64,000 nt of DNA from Lachnospiraceae bacterium AC2031 (GTDB lineage: Bacteria > Bacillota > Clostridia > Lachnospirales > Lachnospiraceae): contig JIAB01000001.1 in the NCBI GenBank assembly GCA_000687975.1, positions 310,001 through 374,000 on the forward strand, in the 5' to 3' direction. Below the pieces are notes generated by a model, which searched no databases, had not been told where the DNA came from, and worked only from the letters and a program-made list of their open reading frames with translations. The position numbers were made by a program, and so were the translations under genes. Shown in pieces: positions 51,524-60,472 of the stretch (its first letter is position 1; each line of letters starts with the position of its first letter).

Positions 51524-52930
51524 TTATGCAGGGTATGTTTTATTCTTTGTGTCAGCCTTGGACAGATCTACACCTGTCTGCTGAGCCTCTCTATACTTGA
51601 AGAACTCAGTTGCAACCTGTGGGAACAGAGCATATGAAAGAACATCCTCTTCCTGCTGGCTGTACTGCTTAATCTCTTCGCGAAGCTTATCAAGTTCTGG
51701 CTCAAGATCATCTGCAGGTCTATGTGTGATAGGCTTTGTATCACCAATAGCTTTCTTCTGAACTTCTGGATTAAATGGCTTGATTGTCTGACCATACTTT
51801 CCAGCAAGAAGATCCTTAGATTCCTTAGTGATCATCTTATATCTTTCACCCATCAGTACATTAAGTACAGCCTGTGTACCAACGATCTGTGATGAAGGAG
51901 TAACAAGAGGTGGCTCACCAAAGTCCTTACGAACACGAGGAACTTCTTCAAGAACTTCCTGAAGCTTATCATCCTGCTTAGCTTCCTTAAGCTGTGATAC
52001 AAGGTTTGAAAGCATACCACCTGGTACCTGATAAAGAAGAGTCTTAATGTTAACACCAAGAATCTTTGTGCTCATAAGACCAGACTCAAGGCACTCTTCT
52101 CTATATGGTCTAAAGTACTCAGCTATCTCAGCAAGGAGATTCTGATCAAGACCTGTATCTCTATCTGTACCCTTAAATGTCTCAACCATAACTTCTGTAG
52201 CAGGCTGTGATGTACCAAGAGCAAATGGTGACATAGCTGTATCGATTACATCAACACCAGCTTCAGCAGCCTTAAGATAAGTCATAGAAGCTACACCTGA
52301 TGTGTAATGTGTATGAAGCTGAATTGGAAGACTTGAACCTTCCTTAAGAGCCTTAACAAGTCTCTCTGCCTCATATGGTACAAGAAGACCTGACATATCC
52401 TTGATACAGATTGAGTTAGCACCCATCTCCTCAATACGTCTAGCTGTATCCTTCCAGTAATCAAGTGTATAAGCATCTCCAAGTGTATATGAAAGTGCGA
52501 TCTGAGCATGACCGCCTTCCTTGTTTGTAGCCTTAACTGCAGTCTCAAGATTACGAAGATCATTGAGGCAGTCAAAGATACGAATAATATCAATACCGTT
52601 AGCAATAGACTTCTGAACGAAGTACTCTACTACGTCATCAGCATATGGTCTATAACCAAGGATGTTCTGACCTCTGAAAAGCATCTGAAGCTTTGTATTC
52701 TTGAAGCCATCCTTAAGCTTACGAAGTCTATCCCATGGATCTTCCTTAAGGAATCTAAGGCAGGCATCAAATGTAGCACCACCCCAGCACTCTACTGAGT
52801 GATATCCAACCTGATCCATCTTATCTATAATTGGAAGCATTTCTTCTGTTGGCATACGAGTTGCAATCAGTGACTGATGTGCGTCACGGAGGACTGTCTC
52901 AGTAATGCCAAGCTTCTTAATTTCTGACAT
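51524..52930 (-). CDS. oadA: Oxaloacetate decarboxylase alpha-type carboxyltransferase (no biotin domain)
   Basis: 468 residues. TIM-barrel carboxyltransferase: ITETVLRDAHQSLIATRM (about 9-26, metal and substrate site), ECWGGATFD, CIKDMSGLL (carbamylated lysine, about 173), LHTHYTSGVASM (metal histidines, about 206). Moves carboxyl between oxaloacetate/pyruvate and biotin. The protein ends soon after the barrel and its helical follow-on and has no Met-Lys-Met biotin domain, which is instead the separate gene at 54.3 kb. It is the last gene of the operon and is separated from oadB by the structured element. Confidence 0.93.
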   Translation of the reverse strand: MSEIKKLGITETVLRDAHQSLIATRMPTEEMLPIIDKMDQVGYHSVECWGGATFDACLRFLKEDPWDRLRKLKDGFKNTKLQMLFRGQNILGYRPYADDVVEYFVQKSIANGIDIIRIFDCLNDLRNLETAVKATNKEGGHAQIALSYTLGDAYTLDYWKDTARRIEEMGANSICIKDMSGLLVPYEAERLVKALKEGSSLPIQLHTHYTSGVASMTYLKAAEAGVDVIDTAMSPFALGTSQPATEVMVETFKGTDRDTGLDQNLLAEIAEYFRPYREECLESGLMSTKILGVNIKTLLYQVPGGMLSNLVSQLKEAKQDDKLQEVLEEVPRVRKDFGEPPLVTPSSQIVGTQAVLNVLMGERYKMITKESKDLLAGKYGQTIKPFNPEVQKKAIGDTKPITHRPADDLEPELDKLREEIKQYSQQEEDVLSYALFPQVATEFFKYREAQQTGVDLSKADTKNKTYPA

Positions 52931-52960
52931 TTTTTTATTTCCTTTCTATATCATATTCAC

Positions 52961-53151
52961 ATGCTCGATTTTGAAAATGTTTTTCTCAACTCAGCTCTCG
53001 CACAGTGCGGGTACCCCTAGCGGCCGTCAGCTTGATTTCTTCGAAAACAAGCTTGGACTCGCTAAGCTCTCACTTCGTACAAAGTACTCGTGAATCGCTA
53101 AGCGCCGAGACCCGCAATGGTTTCGAAAAACATTATTCAAAACTCTCGCAT
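52961..53151 (-). other. Structured intergenic element, 191 bp, with imperfect terminal inverted repeats
   Basis: Ends atgctcgattttgaaaatgt (52961 on) and, on the other strand, atgcgagagttttgaataatg (53151 on) form long imperfect inverted repeats. Inside them TGCGGGT (53006-53012) pairs with ACCCGCA (53110-53116), and enclosed hairpins are gcac-a-gtgc, agcttg...caagct (53029-53053) and cac..gtac-aaa-gtac..gtg (53071-53092), flanked by direct repeats tcgctaagc (53059-53067, 53095-53103). GC content is visibly above the surroundings. No reading frame is convincing. Could be a MITE-like element or a folded RNA in the operon mRNA. Confidence 0.7.
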
Positions 53152-53164
53152 CTATACATTCTAA

Positions 53165-54286
53165 TTAGTGGACGTTAAAAATCGCCATGAAGGTACCAGC
53201 AGCAACGGCTGTACCGATAACTCCGGCAACGTTAGGTCCCATAGCATTCATGAGCAGGAAGTTTGTTGGATCATACTCAGCAGCAACCTTCTGCGAAACT
53301 CTGGCAGCCATAGGTACAGCGGAAACTCCGGCTGAACCGATAAGAGGATTAACCTTACCCTTCGTAATCCAGCACATTAGTTTACCGAACAGAACACCCA
53401 TCGTCGTTCCAAGAATAAATGCAATAAGTCCAAGAGCAACGATTTTAAGTGTAGAAACCTGAAGGAATGCTTCAGCACTTGTTGTAGCACCAACTGATGT
53501 ACCAAGCATGATAACAACGATATACATCATTGCATTTGATGCTGTCTCAGTAAGCTGCTTAACAACTCCAGACTCTCTGAAAAGATTTCCAAGCATCAGC
53601 ATACCAATAAGTGGTGCTGTTGTAGGAAGGATCATAACAACCACGAGAGTAACTACGATAGGGAAGATAACCTTCTCAAGCTTAGTTACCTTACGAAGCT
53701 GAGGCATACGGATAAGTCTCTCCTTCTTGGTTGTGAAAAGCTTCATAAATGGTGGCTGAATTACAGGTACAAGTGACATATATGAATATGCTGCAACTGC
53801 GATAGGTCCAAGAAGTGTATCACCCATTCCAAGCTTACCAGCAAGGAAGATTGATGTAGGACCATCGGCACCACCGATGATTGATATAGCTGCTGCTTCT
53901 TTTCCTGTAAAGCCAAATGCTATTGCAAGGAAATAAGCACCATAAATACCGAACTGCGCCGCAGCTCCTAGTATAAAGCTCGGCGGGTAAGCAATTAGCG
54001 GTCCAAAGTCCGTCATTGCGCCAACACCCATGAAAATGAGTGATGGAAGAATACTCCACTCATCCAGTTTATAGAAGTAATGGAGAAGTCCACCCTCTTC
54101 TATAATACCAGGGAACATATTTACCAGAAACATACCAAATGAGATTGGTACCAGCAGGAGTGGCTCGAACCCTTTAGCGATTGCAAGATACATAAAGAAA
54201 AATGCAACTATTATCATTACGTAGTTCTTCCAATCAAGAGTAGCAAATCCTGTCTGACTGGCAAGATTTAATATTATCTCTTTCAT
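53165..54286 (-). CDS. oadB: Sodium-pumping decarboxylase beta subunit
   Basis: 373 residues, at least nine membrane spans. Couples decarboxylation of carboxy-biotin to Na+ export. The functional motif IIGGADGPTSIFLAGKLG (about 137-154, with the sodium-site aspartate) is intact, as is SAGVSAVPMAARVSQKVA (about 321) and NFLLMNAMGPNVAGVIGTAV (about 345). Transcribed 38 bp after the biotin carrier gene and upstream of the structured element and oadA. Confidence 0.95.
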   Translation of the reverse strand: MKEIILNLASQTGFATLDWKNYVMIIVAFFFMYLAIAKGFEPLLLVPISFGMFLVNMFPGIIEEGGLLHYFYKLDEWSILPSLIFMGVGAMTDFGPLIAYPPSFILGAAAQFGIYGAYFLAIAFGFTGKEAAAISIIGGADGPTSIFLAGKLGMGDTLLGPIAVAAYSYMSLVPVIQPPFMKLFTTKKERLIRMPQLRKVTKLEKVIFPIVVTLVVVMILPTTAPLIGMLMLGNLFRESGVVKQLTETASNAMMYIVVIMLGTSVGATTSAEAFLQVSTLKIVALGLIAFILGTTMGVLFGKLMCWITKGKVNPLIGSAGVSAVPMAARVSQKVAAEYDPTNFLLMNAMGPNVAGVIGTAVAAGTFMAIFNVH

Positions 54287-57338: not shown

Positions 57339-58925
57339 TTACTTATATGCGCCGTCAGCGCCTACCCAGTAACCATCTATATATTTACTAGTTGCCATGT
57401 ATCCAGTTGATTCAAAATAATAACATGATCCATTAATCCATAACCACTGTGACACTGGATACCAGCCTGATGTATCTTCAAACCACCAACCTGTCGCATC
57501 TGACTTCCACTGACCATAGTAACCATCAACTAGAGCGCCATCAGAACCAAGCCAATAGCCATCACGATACTCACTATAGTCCATATAACCACTACTAAGG
57601 AAGTAGTACCATTTACCATCTATCTTTACCCACTGTGATACTGGGTACCAGCCATTGGTATCTTCGACCCACCAGCCAGTGCTATTGCATTTCCATTCAA
57701 GTACCCCTGAATAATCACAGACACCTGCCGCATTATACCATCTTCCATCTACCCATTCATTACAATAGGAGGATGTTGTACTTGTTGTATCTTCATTTGC
57801 TTTAGTTGTTGTGTCTTCTGATGCATTATTAGTTGTTTCATCATTTGACTTCTTCGCCACAGCCTCCTCAGCTGCTTTCTTTGCCGCTGCCTCTTCTTCA
57901 GCCGCCTTCTTTGCCGCTTCTTCCTCAGCCGCCTTCTTTGCCGCTTCTTCCTCAGCCGCCTTCTTTGCCGCTTCTTCCTCAGCTGCCTTCTGCTCAGAAA
58001 CTTTATTTCCTATGACTATATTATCAGGGCATATGCCGTCCGCATCCAGAATCGCCTTCTGTGTATCATCAAGCACCGGATAATACGGAATCACATCGTC
58101 TATTTTACCACCTGCAGGACTCTTTATATACATTGGATCAACAATGTTAATAGTTGGCGCAAATATATTATAATAATCCACTGTATTTTTTACTGTTGTC
58201 TCAACATATCCACCAGATATATTTATACTTCCACCGGCATTTATAGAAACATGTTCTACGTTACTGTATACACTTCCACCTGTAATATCTAAATTTTTGC
58301 TGGCTCCTATACCGAAATATTTAGAATTTATACGAGTTTCTCCACCAGAAATAGCAATACCCGATCCACTCATCATGCCATTGTAACTTGAATTAATAGT
58401 TACATTTCCAGCAATAGATAACTGATCAATACAAAAGAATGCAGCTGAACAAAACTCATCATCATAAAGATTTTCAACATACATATTAGCGCCAGACTTT
58501 ATAATAGCGCTACCCACTGTATAAAAATCACCATTTGTAATTACAACATTCGAACCGTTCTCCTGTATATAATTCGAAATCATACAGAATTCTCCATCAA
58601 TGGTAAGCTTTTTATTTCCCTTAACTGTAAAATTATATTTACTACTTTCTTTACTTATAGATTTATAATCTACACCTTTAAGAGTAAGATCAGAATCCAT
58701 ATCTAAATCGATATTATAAGTACCGCAATAAATATATAAACAATCTTCTTTAGCATCATAATGATAATACTGTGATTCTTTAGTTTTAATCTCACTAGCT
58801 TTTATAGTGTAAGTTTCACCAGCAGCATAACTACTAATTGATGTAATATCGAATACTGAAATCAAAACAAAAAGTGCTAAAACAACCGCAACAATTCGCT
58901 TTAATATATACTTTCTTTCCCTCAT
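57339..58925 (-). CDS. Secreted beta-helix protein with cell-wall-binding tail (paralogue A)
   Basis: 528 residues from ATG 58925, supported by GGGGAAAAGTG upstream; a longer frame to 59033 would run into the preceding gene. Signal peptide RIVAVVLALFVLISVFDITS, then a 240-residue region of strand-rich repeats ending in ISGG-type turns (SGSGIAISGG, NLDITGGSVYSNV, SINISGGYVETTV) that suggests a right-handed beta helix. An Ala/Glu/Lys-rich helical linker (AAEEEAAKK repeats, about 315-355), a KSNDETTNNASEDTT segment and tryptophan-rich wall-binding repeats (about 385-528) follow. Function not known; surface or wall binding is inferred. Confidence 0.85.
   Translation of the reverse strand: MRERKYILKRIVAVVLALFVLISVFDITSISSYAAGETYTIKASEIKTKESQYYHYDAKEDCLYIYCGTYNIDLDMDSDLTLKGVDYKSISKESSKYNFTVKGNKKLTIDGEFCMISNYIQENGSNVVITNGDFYTVGSAIIKSGANMYVENLYDDEFCSAAFFCIDQLSIAGNVTINSSYNGMMSGSGIAISGGETRINSKYFGIGASKNLDITGGSVYSNVEHVSINAGGSINISGGYVETTVKNTVDYYNIFAPTINIVDPMYIKSPAGGKIDDVIPYYPVLDDTQKAILDADGICPDNIVIGNKVSEQKAAEEEAAKKAAEEEAAKKAAEEEAAKKAAEEEAAAKKAAEEAVAKKSNDETTNNASEDTTTKANEDTTSTTSSYCNEWVDGRWYNAAGVCDYSGVLEWKCNSTGWWVEDTNGWYPVSQWVKIDGKWYYFLSSGYMDYSEYRDGYWLGSDGALVDGYYGQWKSDATGWWFEDTSGWYPVSQWLWINGSCYYFESTGYMATSKYIDGYWVGADGAYK
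57901..57981 (-). repeat. Three perfect 27-bp repeats encoding AAEEEAAKK
   Basis: gccgccttctttgccgcttc plus ttcctca repeated exactly at 57901, 57928 and 57955. Perfect identity implies recent slippage; the helical linker length probably varies among strains. Confidence 0.92.
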
Positions 58926-58957
58926 CACTTTTCCCCTTTTAATATATACCATTTTAA

Positions 58958-60472
58958 CTATTCCATATAACCATTGGCATTGAACCAGTACTTTGTTCCG
59001 TTGATCCAGAGGTACTGATTTGATGGATACCATCCATTATCCTCAAACCACCAGCCGGTTGAATCTACATGCCATGTTCCATTCTGATAGCCCTCAACCC
59101 AGGCTCCATCAGCACCAAGCCAGTAGCCATCACGGTATTCTGAATAATCCATGTAGCCAGAATCAAGGAAATAGTACCACTTGCCGTCTATCTTTACCCA
59201 CTGACTTTGTGGATACCAGCCTGCTGTATCTTCAAACCACCAGCCGGTTGAATTACATTTCCAGCTACCTTGAGCTGAATATGAAGTATCTCCATTACTT
59301 CCATACCACTGTCCATTAACCCATTCGTTATTATATATTACAGTGTTCCCAGCTGCTTCTTCCGCAGCCTTCTTTGTTGTGTCTTCTGATGCATTATTAG
59401 TTGTTTCATCATTTGACTTCTTTGCGACTTCTTCGGCCACTTTCTTTGTTGTTCCTTCCTTAGCAACCGCTTCTTCTTCAGCCGCCTTCTTAGATGCTTC
59501 TTCTTCAGCAGCTTTCTTTGCTGCCTCTTCCTCAGCTTCCTTCTGTTCCATCACTTTAGTTCCAATAATAATATGTGATGACTCTTTTCCTTCTTCATCT
59601 ACAATAAGGTTTTCATTATAGTCATAATCGTACGCATAATGCTTTCCAATTTTTCCATTTGAAGGAACCTTAACGTACATAGGATCAGCTAAGCTGAGAT
59701 TATATGAAGAAATGTTATTAGCATTCTCAGTAATTTCAGACGCTATCGATTCAACATAACCTCCAGAAATACTAATGGTACCATTAGAATGAATAGCAGT
59801 ACGAGTTACATTGCTATAAACATATCCACCTGTTATGTCCATATTACTAACCGCATGTATTCCACCTACATCAGCGTTAACACGCATCTCACCACCACTG
59901 ATGCTAATAGTTCTGCAAGCGAACACTCCAGTTCCTGCAGAATCAACTGTTATATATCCCTCAGTATTTAAACTACAACGACAATATAAAGCATAATTAT
60001 TAGCATCAACGTCAAGTTTTTCTATCTTAAGCTTAGCCTCTGAATTAACGGTAACCGATCCATTTGATTTTAAGAAACCATTATTAATAACAACATTTGT
60101 ACCACTTTCCTGAACATATGAAGTATTCATTGTAAAAGATCCATTTACAGTAAGTGTCTTATTTCCCTTAATAGTAAGATTATAAGCATCCATATATTTT
60201 CCAGTAGAAGTATAATTAATCCTACTTAATTCTATATCTGTATCAATTACAAAATCTATATTATGTTCAAGCTCCGTAATATTTAAAGAATTATTCGACT
60301 TATCATATGTATAATAATCTGCTTTTTCTGTTTTAACCTTACTTGCATATATAGTGTAGGTTTCACCTGCAGCATAACTGTTTGTAGATGTACTAAAAGA
60401 CCAGCCAATAACCATAATTATTGCCAGAACTATCAATATAACATTTTTTAAGTAACTCTTTTTAAGCTTCAT
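58958..60472 (-). CDS. Secreted beta-helix protein with cell-wall-binding tail (paralogue B)
   Basis: 504 residues from ATG 60472 (GAGGAAAAATT upstream). Signal peptide NVILIVLAIIMVIGWSFSTS; beta-helix-type region with INYTSTGKYM, NLTIKGNKTLTVNGSF, TISISGGEMRVNAD and NMDITGGYVYSNVTRT; A/E/K linker with the same KSNDETTNNASEDTT insert as paralogue A; tail of wall-binding repeats (GWWFEDTAGWYPQSQW, WYYFLDSGYMDYSEYRDGYW). The last 120 residues are nearly identical in DNA to paralogue C, while the linker insert matches A, so the gene is a mosaic. It sits 17 bp after pgsA. Confidence 0.87.
   Translation of the reverse strand: MKLKKSYLKNVILIVLAIIMVIGWSFSTSTNSYAAGETYTIYASKVKTEKADYYTYDKSNNSLNITELEHNIDFVIDTDIELSRINYTSTGKYMDAYNLTIKGNKTLTVNGSFTMNTSYVQESGTNVVINNGFLKSNGSVTVNSEAKLKIEKLDVDANNYALYCRCSLNTEGYITVDSAGTGVFACRTISISGGEMRVNADVGGIHAVSNMDITGGYVYSNVTRTAIHSNGTISISGGYVESIASEITENANNISSYNLSLADPMYVKVPSNGKIGKHYAYDYDYNENLIVDEEGKESSHIIIGTKVMEQKEAEEEAAKKAAEEEASKKAAEEEAVAKEGTTKKVAEEVAKKSNDETTNNASEDTTKKAAEEAAGNTVIYNNEWVNGQWYGSNGDTSYSAQGSWKCNSTGWWFEDTAGWYPQSQWVKIDGKWYYFLDSGYMDYSEYRDGYWLGADGAWVEGYQNGTWHVDSTGWWFEDNGWYPSNQYLWINGTKYWFNANGYME

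Follow-up and report, generated by a model that had tools for sequence, protein, structure and literature searches.

A family of dispersed structured RNA elements in Lachnospiraceae with a member between oadB and oadA

The window analyzed here is a 64,000-nucleotide stretch of the genome of Lachnospiraceae bacterium AC2031 (contig JIAB01000001.1, positions 310,001 to 374,000). Within it, the intergenic space between oadB and oadA (52931-53164) houses a structured block of 191 bp, which lies on the minus strand, the same strand as both genes. This block belongs to a genuine family of structured RNA elements that are dispersed between genes and were not found in the databases searched. The element is an evolutionarily constrained fold kept by compensatory change, and its copies are dispersed over intergenic sites in either orientation, their presence differing between species. 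Our preferred reading, to which we assign a probability of about 0.5, is that of a dispersed, mobile-like element on which selection acts at the RNA level, favouring its own spread or persistence.

The architecture spans approximately 140 to 200 nt and comprises a long closing stem (P1), a stem P2, an arm formed by P3 and P4 that is interrupted by a U.U mismatch and by an internal loop (GAU/GA), an optional hairpin (P5), and a hairpin capped by a GNRA tetraloop (P6). In the window copy, the outermost P1 pairs, AUGC with GCAU (53148-53151 with 52961-52964), agree exactly with the limits drawn between oadB and oadA by an earlier interpretation made from the letters of the window alone (the sequence-only reading). 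The imperfect inverted ends and the TGCGGGT/ACCCGCA pair that it described are present as well. Its two tcgctaagc repeats also exist, but they are not direct repeats; they form the two arms of one stem, P3, in which CGCUUAGC pairs with GCUUAGCG around a conserved U.U mismatch. These arms change jointly in other copies, to CACUUAGC/GCUUAGUG, UACUUAGC/GCUUAGUA, and CGCUUAGU/ACUUAGCG. At the inner end of P1, the window copy has AAC/GUU and most copies have GAC/GUC, and the GA of the 5' side lies opposite the GA at 52986-52987. The minus-strand fold (231 nt) reaches -75.3 kcal/mol, a value as low as which was found in none of 200 shuffles (z of -4.87, compared to -4.06 for the plus strand of the same region). 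No open reading frame of 80 amino acids or more lies inside the block, consistent with the earlier view that it contains no credible gene.

BLAST, together with a covariance model (R1) derived from nine own-genome copies, detected 12 copies in the 3.19-Mb genome. Eleven of these score at least 65.9 bits and are full length; the twelfth, at 37 bits, retains the closing stem but little of the core. The copies have the inner sequence in common, and the P1 sequence is copy-specific yet largely complementary within each copy. The seed alignment, A1, consists of nine of the 12 copies and leaves out the core-deleted copy and two detected later. A second model, R2, was trained on 111 copies. Alignments A1 and A7 are plain MAFFT alignments, and A2, A5, and A6 are model fitted and biased towards structure. 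Rows were made unique by sequence only, and some genomic copies are present under two locus identifiers. When compared to Rfam 15 at the gathering score, neither the window nor 19 loci gave a match, and the window element had none even at E values up to 5. Two diverged copies gave microRNA and small nucleolar RNA scores only, far below gathering. A known Rfam family was rejected on these grounds, in line with the earlier statement that no described RNA family has these features. Among the open-licence papers returned by literature searches, none describes the family in its title or the opening part of its abstract, and supplementary catalogues, e.g., that of PMC8040213, could contain it unnamed.

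In the plain MAFFT alignment of the nine copies, 85.5% of the cells pair, and 21 pairs have double changes. These amount to 49 cells, compared to 18.5 in shuffles (0 of 500 reach 49) and a maximum of 22 in slid controls. The count of further pair types gave no excess over shuffles (250 of 500). The outermost helix is paired in just 36.5% of the cells because MAFFT sets it out of register. Model-fitted alignments of 105 distinct copies and of 39 distinct copies, the latter mostly from other genera, contain 1165 double-change cells (328 in shuffles) and 586 (170 in shuffles), respectively, and none of 500 shuffles reached either value. Slid controls stayed far below the real alignments, and further pair types in the 39-copy set were little above shuffles (60 of 500). 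All four Watson-Crick types are in about equal use in the outer P1 pairs. When 14 diverged copies were aligned without fitting to a model and folded de novo, P3, P4, and P6 were recovered, with double changes in 17 of 20 pairs, and P1 and P2 were not. On A1, RNAalifold recovered P1, P3, P4, and P6 and preferred a local hairpin over P2. This competing hairpin, GAGACC/GGUCUC in place of P1b and P2, is conserved but shows little covariation and was rejected. The sequence-only reading had looked to homologues for covariation; compensatory changes lie far above shuffles, copies recur beside unrelated genes, and conservation peaks in the core and is lowest at the ends, rather than covariation and copies being absent or conservation being confined to the ends.

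The P6 stem covaries, and its loop is GNRA in all 223 readable rows of 226, in six variants (GAGA, 88; GCGA, 41; GAAA, 37; GGAA, 23; GCAA, 21; GGGA, 13), with the caveat that all seed copies had a GNRA loop, so that some ascertainment is possible, although an altered loop would cost few bits. A GNYA loop, with a pyrimidine at position 3, occurs in 0 of the 223 readable rows. In addition, G.U pairs outnumber A.C in nine of ten helix groups of a model-fitted alignment (inner P1, for example, 26 versus 8), with a tie in the tenth. The GNRA loops and the excess of G.U over A.C together argue for a predicted RNA fold on the minus strand.

Alternatively, the hairpins could be maintained as DNA with no RNA function, either through template switching, by which one arm is rewritten from the other, or through a use of single-stranded DNA hairpins in transposition. 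Such an origin would suit P1, which is the least conserved part yet 81 to 88% Watson-Crick with 3 to 5.5% G.U, G.U being scarce overall. Changes in P1 were counted in 13 partly overlapping same-site pairs, in which 18 double changes yield Watson-Crick pairs, another 7 yield mismatches, and 40 changes are single. Same-site pairs stem from 271 flank matches (35 aligned); 13 were counted for P1 changes and 12 for identity, with P1 arms still alike, whereas pairs with unlike elements were left out as possibly separate insertions, and several pairs overlap. The G.U scarcity and the 18 double changes beside 40 single ones leave room for template switching as the source of the P1 compensations, and replication template switching that rewrites one hairpin arm from the other is described in PMC8794818. 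However, the confinement of all six loop variants to GNRA, the excess of G.U over A.C, the covariation of the core stems across genera, and the absence of the element beside the 31 Y1 transposase loci examined render a purely DNA-level origin of the fold unlikely.

The family is widespread within the Lachnospiraceae. R1 was run on 61 genomes and gave matches in 26, each of them one of the 37 genomes of the own genus, with up to 33 copies per genome. None of 24 genomes from other families of the order gave a match, and 11 of the 37 genus genomes had none under strict filters. R2 detected the element in 53 of 397 genomes of the family, covering 48 of 334 genera sampled; seven candidates were scored per genome in this search, so copy counts are lower bounds. 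Among these genera, 43 have a full-length match, four have the P3/P4 arm only among the matches listed, and one has its match outside those listed; on the genome level, six of the 53 have the P3/P4 arm only among the matches listed. An order-wide draw yielded 12 positive genomes out of 392, all of the own family. A phylum-wide draw of 398 genomes yielded seven. Three of these belong to the own family; one, from another family, has four full-length copies, and in the remaining three, which share a further family, the matches are mostly to the P3/P4 arm. In this further family, the P3/P4 arm occurs alone as a tandem array with an 89-bp period (L430, approximately 1430-1730; L431, approximately 1467-1637). 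This suggests that the arm is a module separable from the rest. When named genomes were scanned for an exact pattern, at least 118 stretches were returned, with Lachnospiraceae among the matches listed (for example, Lachnospiraceae bacterium YSB2008), some of them labelled Eubacterium sp. or Bacillota bacterium; many of those listed come from rumen or other ruminant stomach samples. Plasmid and phage collections searched with the window copy gave no match, and viral contigs gave 0 exact pattern matches.

Genes next to the copies show no common theme. Downstream neighbours fall into 136 Pfam families, none found in more than four of 104 genes, and upstream neighbours into 150, none in more than three of 97, with no functional class common to these flanking genes. 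The scan covered 104 of 111 downstream and 97 of 102 upstream genes, those dropped being mostly genes of one genome, G002. Of 124 copies, 55 lie in sense and 35 in antisense between co-directional genes, a count that includes seven copies inside one insertion sequence (IS) of a relative; without the G002 IS copies, the numbers are 49 and 35, a weak sense bias. In the fetched loci, 22 of 29 neighbouring element pairs within 500 nt are head to head, seven are tandem (three loci), and none is convergent; the head-to-head share rises to 20 of 21 within 130 nt. Local inverted duplication was rejected as their origin, as core identity in 20 such pairs (mean, 63.3%) equals that of random pairs (62.6%). 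The spacers of several head-to-head pairs (L306, L240, L234, L283, L295) read TCGCGA, a short AT-rich stretch, and TCGCGA, and might be symmetrical promoter regions. Unlike the usual head-to-head pairs, one locus (G413, L348 3059-10038) carries eight copies in 7 kb, all in one orientation. An own promoter or terminator for the element was rejected: promoter-like sites were not enriched (38% versus 36% in shuffles), and a run of six or more T residues follows within 60 nt 3' of the end in just 5% of 211 copies, which bears out the earlier remark that the block is unlike a terminator.

The sites themselves differ between relatives. At the oadB-oadA junction, 28 of 30 loci were readable (L179 and L180 were misanchored and left out), and 26 of these 28 have no R2 match. 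The other two have matches in reversed orientation, L181 at 120 bits and L196 at 54 bits. In 12 of the 28, the junction is short (span of at most 105 nt, compared to 280 here), and neither P1 arm is present. Insertion into a preexisting hairpin, with P1 derived from the target, was rejected because neither arm was found at the short junctions read. Across the genus, this junction is a hot spot for insertions: relatives have unrelated inserts of approximately 100 to 300 bp there, many of them palindromic and without a model match. Two other own-genome copies have clean empty sites in relatives G032 and G070, with flanks 88 to 96% identical, and one of these two sites, that of copy c8, holds a reversed copy in another relative (L400), which brings the sites with an opposite-orientation copy in a relative to three (L181, L196, L400). 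In this comparison, L411 was misanchored, and L399, L406, L417, and L422 were incomplete. At sites that are full in this genome, L416 and L401 have apparent part-deleted remnants, with outer P1 sequence and no core.

These observations bear on the proposal of the sequence-only reading that the block is a structured RNA controlling oadA. A constrained, RNA-like fold is supported by the covariation and the GNRA loop, but control of oadA in particular is not. The copy lies in sense just upstream of oadA, and the nearest relative, G032 (L180, outside the 28), has the window's copy at the same junction, also in sense, as a gene-specific riboswitch or attenuator would. On the other hand, the 104 downstream neighbours share no function, antisense copies exist, and every one of the 28 readable relatives has either no match or a reversed match at the junction, which leaves a cis-regulator dedicated to oadA with hardly any credibility. 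The unrelated neighbours, the mixed orientation, and the empty and reversed sites thus indicate a mobile-like structured RNA element rather than an oadA-specific switch. The alternative offered at the time, a miniature mobile element, holds as far as the dispersed, mobile-like behaviour is concerned, but the conserved shared ends of a miniature inverted-repeat transposable element (MITE) are lacking. A TCGCGA motif at the left end combined with a CCGCGG-like motif at the right occurs in a subset of 24 of 225 copies (TCGCGA background, 0.005 per 50 nt). A boundary motif ACA...GT was not upheld, with the right GT in 22 of 213 copies and GT plus the left A in 13.

A link to a transposase was found in one genome. 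In G002, all ten UPF0236 (PF06782) genes, which we take to belong to ISLre2-type IS, have the RNA 20 to 21 nt past the stop codon (L079-L085, L364-L366). For six of these genes, the repeated unit extends at least 55 nt beyond the RNA model, and in one subfamily it is a 1764-bp unit that contains the RNA and is identical in three further copies; the RNA can therefore travel as part of an IS. This holds for G002 and not for the window copy. The location inside the repeated unit wherever compared would fit a family of nonautonomous derivatives (MITEs) of such an IS. However, a search of 20 carrier genomes found no UPF0236 gene in 19 of them (with the proviso that draft genomes may miss genes), the P1 arms are not conserved terminal repeats, and the motif at both ends is restricted to the subset given above. 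UPF0236 was accordingly rejected as the general mover, and a MITE origin from such an IS appears very improbable.

The lack of a transposase common to the carriers, among the UPF0236 and Y1 types searched, is also one of several points that weigh against a mobile-like element selected for its own spread. Of the 61 genomes of the genus survey, 34 carry Y1 transposase genes, and the element was found near none of 31 Y1 loci (E value up to 1; no BLAST match in 20 of them), which led to the rejection of a REP/RAYT-like pair. By-eye inspection revealed no convincing target duplication, with a possible one of 7 nt at L048, and the ends are fuzzy. In the 12 same-site pairs, the core is 93 to 100% identical (gaps uncounted), compared to values down to 59% in the adjacent 40 nt, 68% in the P1 arms, and 76% in flanks 120 to 650 nt away; one pair has an additional P5 indel. 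Such conservation, the main argument against a purely selfish reading, suggests either selection at the site itself, implying a host role, or gene conversion. Moreover, a purely selfish repeat should leave many decayed copies, and few were seen.

The main rival explanation follows from these points, namely that of a host-functional RNA family, in which small RNA genes or mRNA elements involved in processing, stability, or protein binding are kept by the host and dispersal is secondary. It would account for a nearly invariant core amid drifting intergenic DNA and for the intactness of most own-genome copies, and it agrees with the weak sense bias and with the higher frequency of a ribosome-binding site plus start codon within 80 nt downstream of sense copies than upstream of antisense copies (22% versus 8%; 211 copies). 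It is less easily reconciled with same sites being empty in close relatives, with the 11 genus genomes without a match, and with the lack of promoter or terminator enrichment and of an associated gene class. We regard a host function as possible.

Under the reading of a mobile-like element, the RNA form would be the state under selection, and, as neither a promoter nor a terminator of the element itself stood out, the RNA would arise through transcription of the host region. The RNA fold would most likely be needed for spread or persistence, with the machinery presumably supplied in trans. At the window locus, the oadBA mRNA would include the element, folded between the two coding regions, and oadA would be affected, if at all, as a side effect, for example, of altered mRNA processing or stability. 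A more specific and quite tentative version is that of a protein-less RNA mobile element of Bacillota, approximately 190 nt long, with RNA as the transposition intermediate, P1 renewed at or after each move, and a preference for landing head to head. The RNA might, for instance, be copied back by a reverse transcriptase acting in trans, leaving the P1 sequence free and its complementarity kept.

Known systems share some of these features. Riboswitches and other 5'-leader RNAs have a conserved core and a variable closing stem, as does the element, which at several loci is located upstream of start codons; unlike them, it has no regulon, occurs in both orientations, and is present in many copies per genome. 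The omega RNA of TnpB/IscB and the bridge RNA of IS110 are IS-borne RNAs, and the G002 copies likewise are structured RNAs inside an IS behind a transposase gene. They differ in that the transposase is UPF0236, that solo copies exist without such a gene, and that Rfam has no match. ERIC and RU repeats are intergenic, 100 to 200 bp long, and have inverted-repeat ends. REP/BIME and REPIN sequences have a hairpin foot and are associated with Y1 transposases. Like these sequences (PMC2817692), the element is a dispersed hairpin. Its neighbours also alternate in orientation as theirs do, but it is several times longer, is not found alongside Y1 loci, and has no conserved hairpin foot. The size, intergenic location, and inverted-repeat ends are also those of MITEs (PMC2759123); in contrast to MITEs and ERIC/RU, the ends of the element are least conserved and its inner core is conserved. 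Finally, Cozzuto et al. (2008; PMC2267715) report 92 stem-loop repeat families of bacterial genomes that are likewise multicopy, largely intergenic, of common predicted secondary structure, and possibly active as RNA. Compared to these, the element stands apart by its multistem fold, GNRA loop, covariation across many genera, and free closing stem.

The features of the window copy and its neighbours are listed in Table 1. Beside the oad cluster, at 57339-60472, two adjacent similar proteins are encoded that contain Ala/Lys/Glu-rich repeats and C-terminal Trp-rich repeats.

Table 1. Features of the window copy and of its surroundings
Feature	Position	Strand	Evidence or remark
Whole structured element, window copy c1, P1 to P1	52961..53151	-	R1 match 52964-53147, 193.6 bits, E 5.7e-56
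P1 5' arm, long closing stem, sequence free to differ between copies	53125..53151	-	Alignment and covariation
P1 3' arm	52961..52985	-	Alignment and covariation
P1 inner end: GA, then AAC paired to GUU 52988-52990	53120..53124	-	Alignment and covariation
GUU plus GA, partner of 53120-53124	52986..52990	-	Alignment and covariation
P2 5' arm UGCGGGU	53110..53116	-	Double changes in 3 of 7 pairs (nine-copy alignment)
P2 3' arm ACCCGCA	53006..53012	-	Covariation
P3 5' arm CGG-CGCUUAGC, includes one tcgctaagc repeat	53097..53107	-	Covariation; CGG pairs with CCG 53021-53023
P3 3' arm GCUUAGCG, other tcgctaagc repeat	53060..53067	-	Covariation
P3b/P4 apical arm UCAC GA GUAC UUU GUAC GAA GUGA	53070..53093	-	Covariation
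P5, optional hairpin, missing or replaced in several copies	53026..53058	-	Alignment
Conserved segment CCGCUAGGGG	53014..53023	-	Alignment
P6, GC-GAGA-GC hairpin with GNRA tetraloop	52994..53001	-	Covariation and loop survey
oadB, upstream neighbour, context only	53165..54286	-	PF03977, E 2.1e-148
oadA, downstream neighbour, context only	51524..52930	-	PF02436, E 8.4e-57
Loci with other oadB-oadA inserts (L183, L185, L186, L188-L190, L193, L195, L197, L198, L203)	Window site 52931-53164		

Inverted ends are the usual criterion by which small dispersed repeats are assessed. In this family, the ends vary freely, and evolution has kept an inner RNA fold, over the approximately 43 genera in which one sample gave full-length matches. 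Widespread in Lachnospiraceae and without an Rfam model, the family is located inside core-metabolism operons. It may thus provide a testable case of a bacterial element selected at the RNA level, and its free yet nearly always paired P1 would be a natural test bed for template switching versus RNA selection as the source of compensation.
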